Virus record (IMG/VR): IMGVR_UViG_3300000651_000008
Span: 1-28,546 of that record
Source of the DNA: a virus
Strand: one strand, 5' to 3'
DNA length: 28,546 bases
Part shown: piece after piece, positions 5,410 through 6,398 of the stretch
How the letters are laid out: each line of letters starts with the position of its first letter
Numbering within the stretch: the stretch's first letter is position 1
Program-made: the position numbers and the translations under genes
Notes under the pieces: generated by a model
Databases searched by the model: none
What the model was told of the DNA's origin: nothing
What the model saw: the letters and a program-made list of their open reading frames with translations, nothing else

Positions 5410-5635
5410 TCTTGCCAAGTTCTTCGGCTTCGAGGATCTGCAAATCACCTCAGTCGATGGCATCCCCTATGCCCAACCGAGTTCGGGCTACGCCTGGCGC
5501 GAGGAGTGCACGAGCTGCGGCAGGCATCCCAAGTATTTCCTAGTTCCGGCGGAGATTGCCTTGTGCCGGCGCTGTGTCGCATCGATCCGCGAGAACGCGG
5601 CGTTACGAGAAAAACGGGCTGGCGATGGCGGGTGA
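5402..5635 (+). CDS. Small zinc-ribbon protein
   Basis: 77 aa with C36-x2-C39 and C55-x2-C58, a four-Cys zinc ribbon with the knuckles 15 residues apart. The N-terminus (MADLAKFFGFEDLQ) is probably helical and the C-terminus charged. It overlaps the next gene (start 5625) by 11 nt, so it is likely co-translated with the replication protein. Such small ribbons accompany phage replication genes and often bind nucleic acid, but no specific function can be given. Confidence 0.65.
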   Translation: MADLAKFFGFEDLQITSVDGIPYAQPSSGYAWREECTSCGRHPKYFLVPAEIALCRRCVASIRENAALREKRAGDGG

Positions 5636-6006
5636 CTGGATCAAGCTCGAGCACGCGACCCTCCAGAAGCCCGAAGTCCACGAGATCGCGGAAGTCATGA
5701 ACCTAAGCCGGCGGGAAGCCATCGGCCTGCTCGCCGAATACTTCTGTTGGCTCGACCTGCATATGGCCGATTCGCGTAACGGTCTCGTAACGCACGTGTC
5801 ACGCAAGAGCGTTGATGAAGCGTTACACGAACCCGGCTTTTCGGCCATGTTGGAGCAAATCGGATGGGCCAAATTCGATGACGAGAAGCGGACTTTAACG
5901 GTCACTAACTGGGATAGGCACAACGGAAAGACAGCGAAATCAAGGGCTTTGGGACAGAAGCGCGCGCAACGATTCCGTAACGATTCCGTAACGCTCGAAG
6001 CGTTAC
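5601..6006. other. Candidate replication origin: cluster of GTAACG/CGTTAC iterons
   Basis: Seven copies of the hexamer GTAACG or its complement lie within 406 bp: 5601, 5776, 5787, 5821, 5977, 5988 and 6001 (first base of each). Two pairs are spaced exactly 11 bp apart, one helical turn. AACGATTCCGT is tandemly repeated at 5968-5989, and the last two hexamers form a dyad with 8-bp arms (GTAACGCT, AGCGTTAC) around CGA at 5988-6006. A purine-rich, then AT-richer tract follows. This matches lambda ori, which lies inside gene O, in layout but not in sequence. Confidence 0.55.
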
Positions 6007-6398
6007 CAGAGAAGAGAAGAGAAGAGAAGAGATTAAAGACAAATACAAAGGCATCAGCGCTCACGCGCTGCCCCCCCGACTTCGCGATAAGCGATCGGGT
6101 CAAAAGCTGGGCGGTAGAGAAAGGCCACAACCACCTAGACGCGCAGTTTGAAGCCTTCATGAGTTACGTCCGGCGCAAGCAGCCCAAGTACGCCGATTGG
6201 GATGAGGCGTTGATGACCTGCATCCGCGAGGATTGGGCGAAGCTGGGCGAACACCCAAAGGGCAATGGTGCGGCTTGGTGGTCGAGCGAGAAAGCAACCG
6301 AGGCAAAGGCTCGCGAGCTCGGCATGTGGCCGGCTCGAGCGGGCGAATCTTGGAATGATTTCCGTGGGCGCATCCGGGCCCGGCTGGGAGGCGCATGA
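5625..6398 (+). CDS. Replication initiator / replisome organiser, lambda O-like
   Basis: 257 aa from ATG 5625 (MAGDWIKLEHATLQKPEV), the typical N-terminus of O-like phage replication proteins; 23 more upstream codons are open but overlap the zinc-protein gene. Residues 1-125 look like the winged-helix origin-binding part (EAIGLLAEYFCWLDLH; LTVTNWDRHNGKTAKSRA). A Lys/Arg/Glu linker (EKRREEKRLK) follows, then a C-terminal domain from about residue 145 (PPDFAISDRVKSWAVEKG ... YADWDEALMTCIREDWAKLGE) of the kind that recruits host helicase loader or helicase. No separate helicase or loader gene is visible, so host DnaB/DnaC or equivalent is presumably used. Iterons in its own coding sequence support a cis origin. 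Confidence 0.8.
   Translation: MAGDWIKLEHATLQKPEVHEIAEVMNLSRREAIGLLAEYFCWLDLHMADSRNGLVTHVSRKSVDEALHEPGFSAMLEQIGWAKFDDEKRTLTVTNWDRHNGKTAKSRALGQKRAQRFRNDSVTLEALPEKRREEKRLKTNTKASALTRCPPDFAISDRVKSWAVEKGHNHLDAQFEAFMSYVRRKQPKYADWDEALMTCIREDWAKLGEHPKGNGAAWWSSEKATEAKARELGMWPARAGESWNDFRGRIRARLGGA
6011..6031. repeat. GAAGA pentamer microsatellite in the replication gene
   Basis: Four perfect GAAGA units (6011-6030) follow the iteron cluster and encode the charged linker of the replication protein. One strand is pure purine here, and the following stretch (GATTAAAGACAAATACAAAG) is AT-rich, so it could serve as the strand-opening region of the origin. A pentamer repeat inside a coding frame is also a possible slippage site, since a unit change would shift frame. 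Confidence 0.8.

Follow-up and report, generated by a model that had tools for sequence, protein, structure and literature searches.

Does the repeat-rich first half of a phage replication gene contain the origin at which the product of the same gene starts replication, and would such an origin resemble that of phage lambda? The question is raised by a 28.5-kb virus record, IMG/VR IMGVR_UViG_3300000651_000008, which we analysed over positions 1-28,546 (this whole stretch is called the window below) and which carries P22-type genes for portal, terminase, scaffold and major head. We consider it highly probable that the segment 5601-6050 is a phage replication origin embedded in its own initiator gene. 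The features of this locus are collected in Table 1.

Table 1. Features of the candidate origin and of the initiator gene (window coordinates).
Feature	Position	Strand	Remarks
Replication initiator gene	5625..6398	+	257 aa; PHROG 2509 match, AlphaFold2 model
Upstream GTAACG site	5601..5606	-	exact match; PAN70 and Rac 442/2 likewise have sites near -20 to -30
Iteron cluster 1	5776..5803	+	GTAACG at 5776 and 5787, GTCACG at 5798; 11-bp steps
Inverted GTAACG closing cluster 1	5821..5826	-	PAN70 and L008 have a site at the equivalent place
Iteron cluster 2	5966..5993	+	GCAACG at 5966, GTAACG at 5977 and 5988; 11-bp steps
19-bp dyad GTAACGCT-CGA-AGCGTTAC	5988..6006		13-bp half-site offset, 8-bp arms
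Purine tract (AGAGA)5	6008..6032	+	25 nt
AT-rich patch, probable strand-opening site	6033..6050		from its sequence and the AT excess in relatives
Initiator C-terminal domain, residues about 148-206	6066..6242	+	common to L021-L024

The initiator gene and its neighbourhood

The gene product matched PHROG 2509 ('replication initiation protein') over residues 1-148 with an E value of 7.3e-32, and its N-terminus showed 28-40% identity to 46 phage records in tblastn. Judged from these alignments, it is a member of the epsilon15-type PHROG 2509 initiator family. In the AlphaFold2 model (mean pLDDT 82), the N-terminal domain is winged-helix-like and leads into a basic helix formed by residues 104-120. 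Searches with this model using Foldseek and VIA-align recovered generic winged-helix matches only, which were too weak for naming the fold family; the best structural match was CRP (Z 6.0), and the Rep-DNA complex 5kbj reached Z 5.2. For the C-terminal module, Pfam gave no match and the comparison with DnaT by hhalign resulted in a probability of 11%. Several relatives possess a DnaT-like C-terminal domain, and the module in the window is of another kind. The ORFs next to the window initiator had no PHROG match and included no recognisable helicase loader of the P/DnaC type; in several relatives a DnaC-like loader gene adjoins the initiator.

To the left of the candidate origin, the minus strand encodes a RecE-like exonuclease at 1967-2647 and, at 1043-1615, a Lar-like restriction alleviation protein. 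The extreme end of the contig (1-71) is occupied by a hexamer repeat of GTAGCC and GTCGCC with about 12 units. GC skew shows no clean switch across the window. AT skew flips its sign near 5 kb, a signal that is confounded because those genes on the left that have database matches lie on the minus strand.

Repeats, dyad and purine tract in the window

The preliminary description of this DNA had claimed seven GTAACG iterons in the replication gene, with two pairs spaced by 11 bp and a perfect dyad followed by a purine tract and an AT-richer stretch. All seven exact copies were located between 5601 and 6006, at 5601(-), 5776(+), 5787(+), 5821(-), 5977(+), 5988(+) and 6001(-), and the remaining 28.1 kb of the window holds five more. 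The spaced pairs are 5776/5787 and 5977/5988, the 19-bp dyad at 5988-6006 has 8-bp arms free of any mismatch, and it is indeed followed by five AGAGA units and then by TTAAAGACAAATACAAAG. The position inside the gene holds for six sites only, because the one at 5601 lies 24 bp before the start codon.

Two copies with one mismatch had been overlooked, GTCACG at 5798 and GCAACG at 5966. Both keep the same 11-bp register, and each cluster therefore has three direct copies. In relatives, the counterpart of cluster 1 is found at nt 135-210 and that of cluster 2 at nt 330-405. The purine tract measures 25 nt against 11.9 nt expected from codon usage, and 1% of the resamplings contained a run this long.

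The copies had also been said to exceed chance by far, and here the outcome depends on how they are counted. In GC-rich DNA the raw number is unremarkable alone, because eight hexamers reach seven copies in some 440-bp stretch of the window and 96 of 200 Markov simulations also show some hexamer doing so; raw hexamer counting is thus weak proof. After correction for frequency (0.11 copies expected) the claim stood, as GTAACG forms the top cluster among all hexamers of the window (p 3.0e-11) and none of the 200 simulations was as extreme. Synonymous-codon shuffling of the window gene with the protein kept fixed left 1.1 GTAACG (maximum 3 in 200 shuffles), compared with the 6 observed.

Conservation of the repeats as DNA

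Homologues were collected using conserved peptide patterns, which favoured typical members, and comprised 241 genes from annotated phages, viral contigs and bacterial genomes; 97 were left after dropping N-termini at least 80% alike. A scan of viral contigs with a single protein query gave no matches, and alignment-based scans found homologues.

At least four GTAACG copies in the first 450 nt were present in 53 of the 97 homologues, against 1.3 expected under synonymous shuffling. Across the homologues the repeat copies numbered 5.8, compared with 1.2 after such shuffling. The preliminary description would have been refuted by a hexamer equally common elsewhere, which is not the case: in the 56 GTAACG genes, the origin region contains 11.4 copies per kb and the flanks 0.29, a ratio of 39. 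The sites occupy several reading frames and both strands (coding for GNA, SVT, ALP, VT or SNA) and the protein sequence therefore does not dictate them. In the GTAACG genes, sites are grouped into two clusters, within which inverted copies are offset by 13 bp and direct copies by 11-12 bp. In three motif classes, no spacing is more frequent than the inverted one of 13 bp.

The elements downstream of the clusters are conserved as well. The median start of the purine tract in relatives is nt 390, AGAGAAGAG was found in 77 of 97 relatives, and the purine run exceeds the codon-usage prediction in 52 of 96 genes. A 40-bp stretch spanning the tract end has a mean AT excess of 0.16-0.17 (86 genes), while it is at most 0.07 in the other 20-bp bins within 400 bp. 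The layout is conserved well beyond the phage of the window, and selection acts on the DNA itself.

The dyad is also largely confined to the initiator gene when searched for without any protein criterion. Searching 2.9 million viral contigs with the pattern GTAACGCT-N3-AGCGTTAC yielded at least 119 loci, and among the matches listed 115 of 119 lie in initiator ORFs (three of these ORFs being truncated). Counted as distinct contexts, these are 67 of the 73 listed, and such ORFs account for 8% of the sequence scanned. For GTCACGCT-N3-AGCGTGAC, 31 of 39 loci and 25 of 32 contexts among the listed matches fall in initiator ORFs. GTCACG dyads were seen in ORFs outside the initiator family too, around position 2095 of L376, where the ORF may also encode a phage initiator, and as an array around position 2100 of L384, where the ORF is unassigned.

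Change of the repeat word along initiator lineages

The repeat word travels with the initiator lineage and the geometry stays constant. The initiator genes of epsilon15, SPN1S and phiPSA1 contain no GTAACG and seven to eight copies of GCGGAC/GTCCGC. At least three GTAACG copies were found in 128 of the 241 genes, at least three GCGGAC copies in 88 and both in none, with minor classes using GTCACG (10 genes), GTGACG, GTAGAC, TGTGAC and TGTCCG; the candidate words were picked after inspection, and the assignment of genes with three copies is less certain. Both offsets, 13 bp for inverted and 11 bp for direct copies, recur in the GTCCGC and GTCACG classes. Cluster 1 of the GTCCGC class is situated at nt 45-105 and codes for other amino acids. 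Flanking bases extend the half-sites to GTAACGCT, GTCCGCAT and GTCACGCT.

On the protein tree, which is poorly resolved, the word changes 17 times, compared with 36 times when labels are shuffled. The nearest relative of the window (L021) uses TGTCCG. At another locus (L023:3552-4235) an N-terminus of the GTCCGC class, together with its iterons, is fused to a C-terminal domain of the window type (42% identity). By its sequence, this gene looks like the product of a joint exchange of DNA-binding domain and iterons.

Column 114 of the initiator, within helix 104-120, has the strongest association with the word. Of the 55 GTAACG proteins, 50 have V there; all 22 GCGGAC and 6 of 8 GTCACG proteins have K, the GTGACG proteins M and the GTAGAC proteins Q. 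The window initiator itself has A and not V, which counts against the origin explanation, as do the lack of a recognisable loader next to its gene, the doubtful link of its C-terminal domain to DnaT and the missing GC-skew switch. No motif copy overlaps codon 114 in any of 92 genes. Three of the supported independent comparisons agree and none disagrees; because there are only four of them, we treat residue 114 as a lead rather than a result.

Comparison with lambda and other systems

In lambda, gene O contains four 19-bp iterons to which dimers of the O protein bind; they wrap the DNA and, with the help of transcription, open the adjacent AT-rich tract (PMC3985674, PMC7466680). As a positive control, the lambda iterons were recovered by the same script. 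A lambda-like layout with a different motif had been proposed for the window, and this is what we see: iterons, a dyad and a purine-biased AT-rich tract in the initiator gene, all conserved in homologues. As in lambda, the origin would lie inside the initiator gene with iterons beside an AT-rich tract, the units are 19-bp inverted repeats with a half-site offset of 13 bp (one dyad with perfect arms in the window), and the tract is purine-biased on the coding strand downstream. Lambda has a single block of four iterons, whereas the window type has two clusters about 200 bp apart and 11-bp direct half-sites, and the words differ.

No such resemblance was detected between the proteins. The window initiator had no Pfam match, and hhalign of a 60-sequence profile against lambda O gave a probability of 0.2% over 10 columns. 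By the tests applied, the initiator is not a member of the lambda O family: homology to O was undetected and no P/DnaC-type loader gene was recognised next to it. By analogy of layout, the candidate origin probably works like lambda ori.

The epsilon15-type initiators of PHROG 2509 (epsilon15, SPN1S, phiPSA1, TL-2011b and Xanthomonas CP2) share with the window the homologous N-terminal domain, the two-cluster layout and the AGAGA tract. They differ in the word, which is GTCCGC in epsilon15, SPN1S and phiPSA1, and in the C-terminal domain, which is often DnaT-like, unlike that of the window. In the Rac prophage of E. coli 442/2, ydaU has a homologous N-terminus and GTAACG iterons at equivalent places. 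In E. coli K-12, however, the N-terminal domain of the Rac ydaU is DUF1376 and a GTAACG cluster is absent, so the layout was rejected as an explanation of the K-12 oriJ. Passages found in the Rac papers that mention oriJ map it to no sequence element. The K-12 gene (L244:4120-4977) has a C-terminal part as in 442/2 and TGTTCAAAC(A) repeats at nt 390-465. By its sequence, this slot possibly also accommodates another cassette of initiator and iterons.

For geminivirus Rep, too, short iterons are described that differ from one close relative to the next and fit the cognate initiator (PMC12548392). Geminiviruses are in contrast ssDNA viruses with an unrelated protein and a rolling-circle origin upstream of the gene.

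A candidate origin and its alternatives

We infer that the encoded protein binds the repeats, that the DNA melts at the tract, that the helicase is loaded and that the segment has origin activity. The winged-helix-like N-terminal domain and the basic helix 104-120 would bind GTAACG half-sites: an initiator dimer would occupy the 19-bp dyad with its 13-bp offset, and the initiator would also occupy the 11-bp-phased copies, which share one helix face. With the clusters about 200 bp apart, the bound protein may loop or wrap the DNA, and the strain, together with transcription through the gene, would open the AT-rich patch at the purine tract. The C-terminal domain might aid the recruitment of the host helicase.

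The alternative that survives best is that the initiator binds the sites mainly to regulate its own transcription or copy number, as operators or by handcuffing, and that strand opening takes place elsewhere. Iteron systems often combine regulation with origin function, and the site 24 bp before the start codon, like the upstream sites of some relatives, would suit this role. However, nearly all sites are deep in the gene, up to 380 nt past its start, which is a poor position for operators, and the fixed distance of the clusters from the purine tract and the AT-rich patch is unneeded for autoregulation. We consider regulation as the main function improbable.

Still less probable, to a degree that makes it quite unlikely, is that a host protein, DnaA-like or a nucleoid factor, binds the repeats instead of the phage initiator. 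Host factors bind many origins, and the link between residue 114 and the word, which would tie the repeats to the initiator, is only suggestive. Against a host protein speaks that GTAACG is common to loci of Pseudomonadota, Planctomycetota, Verrucomicrobiota and Lentisphaerota, and that phages of the same enterobacteria carry either GTAACG or GCGGAC, tracking the initiator lineage.

It is hardly credible that a repetitive or conserved protein sequence gave rise to the repeats as a side effect: although the peptides GNA and SVT recur in the translation of many copies and that of the tract reads EKRREEKR, the repeats vanish under synonymous shuffling with a fixed protein, which refutes this as a full explanation, the word occurs in several frames and on both strands with one window site upstream of the gene, and two relatives with different words retain the DNA geometry.

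Implications for phage replication

Intragenic iteron origins are already known from lambda. For GTAACG and GTCCGC iterons, and for the switching of iterons with the initiator in this family, we found no description in the open-access literature searched; among titles and abstracts, none was found that links GTAACG to a phage origin. Beyond the window, we lean towards a widespread class of phage origins without detectable relation to lambda O. Here the initiator's DNA-binding domain and the iteron word would be passed on jointly, as an exchangeable cassette, and a small readable code (notably helix 104-120 and residue 114) would set the variable core within the conserved 13/11-bp geometry.

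If this is true, sequence would allow the position of the origin and the specificity of replication to be predicted for phages from several bacterial phyla. It would provide a candidate origin for epsilon15-like, Xanthomonas, Pseudomonas, planctomycete and verrucomicrobial phages and prophages, for which we found none described. The natural series of initiator-iteron pairs would be a source for reading a DNA-recognition code. It also suggests that phage modules can recombine while the match between initiator and origin survives, since a swap of the N-terminal half of the gene would swap the origin too and so keep the match.
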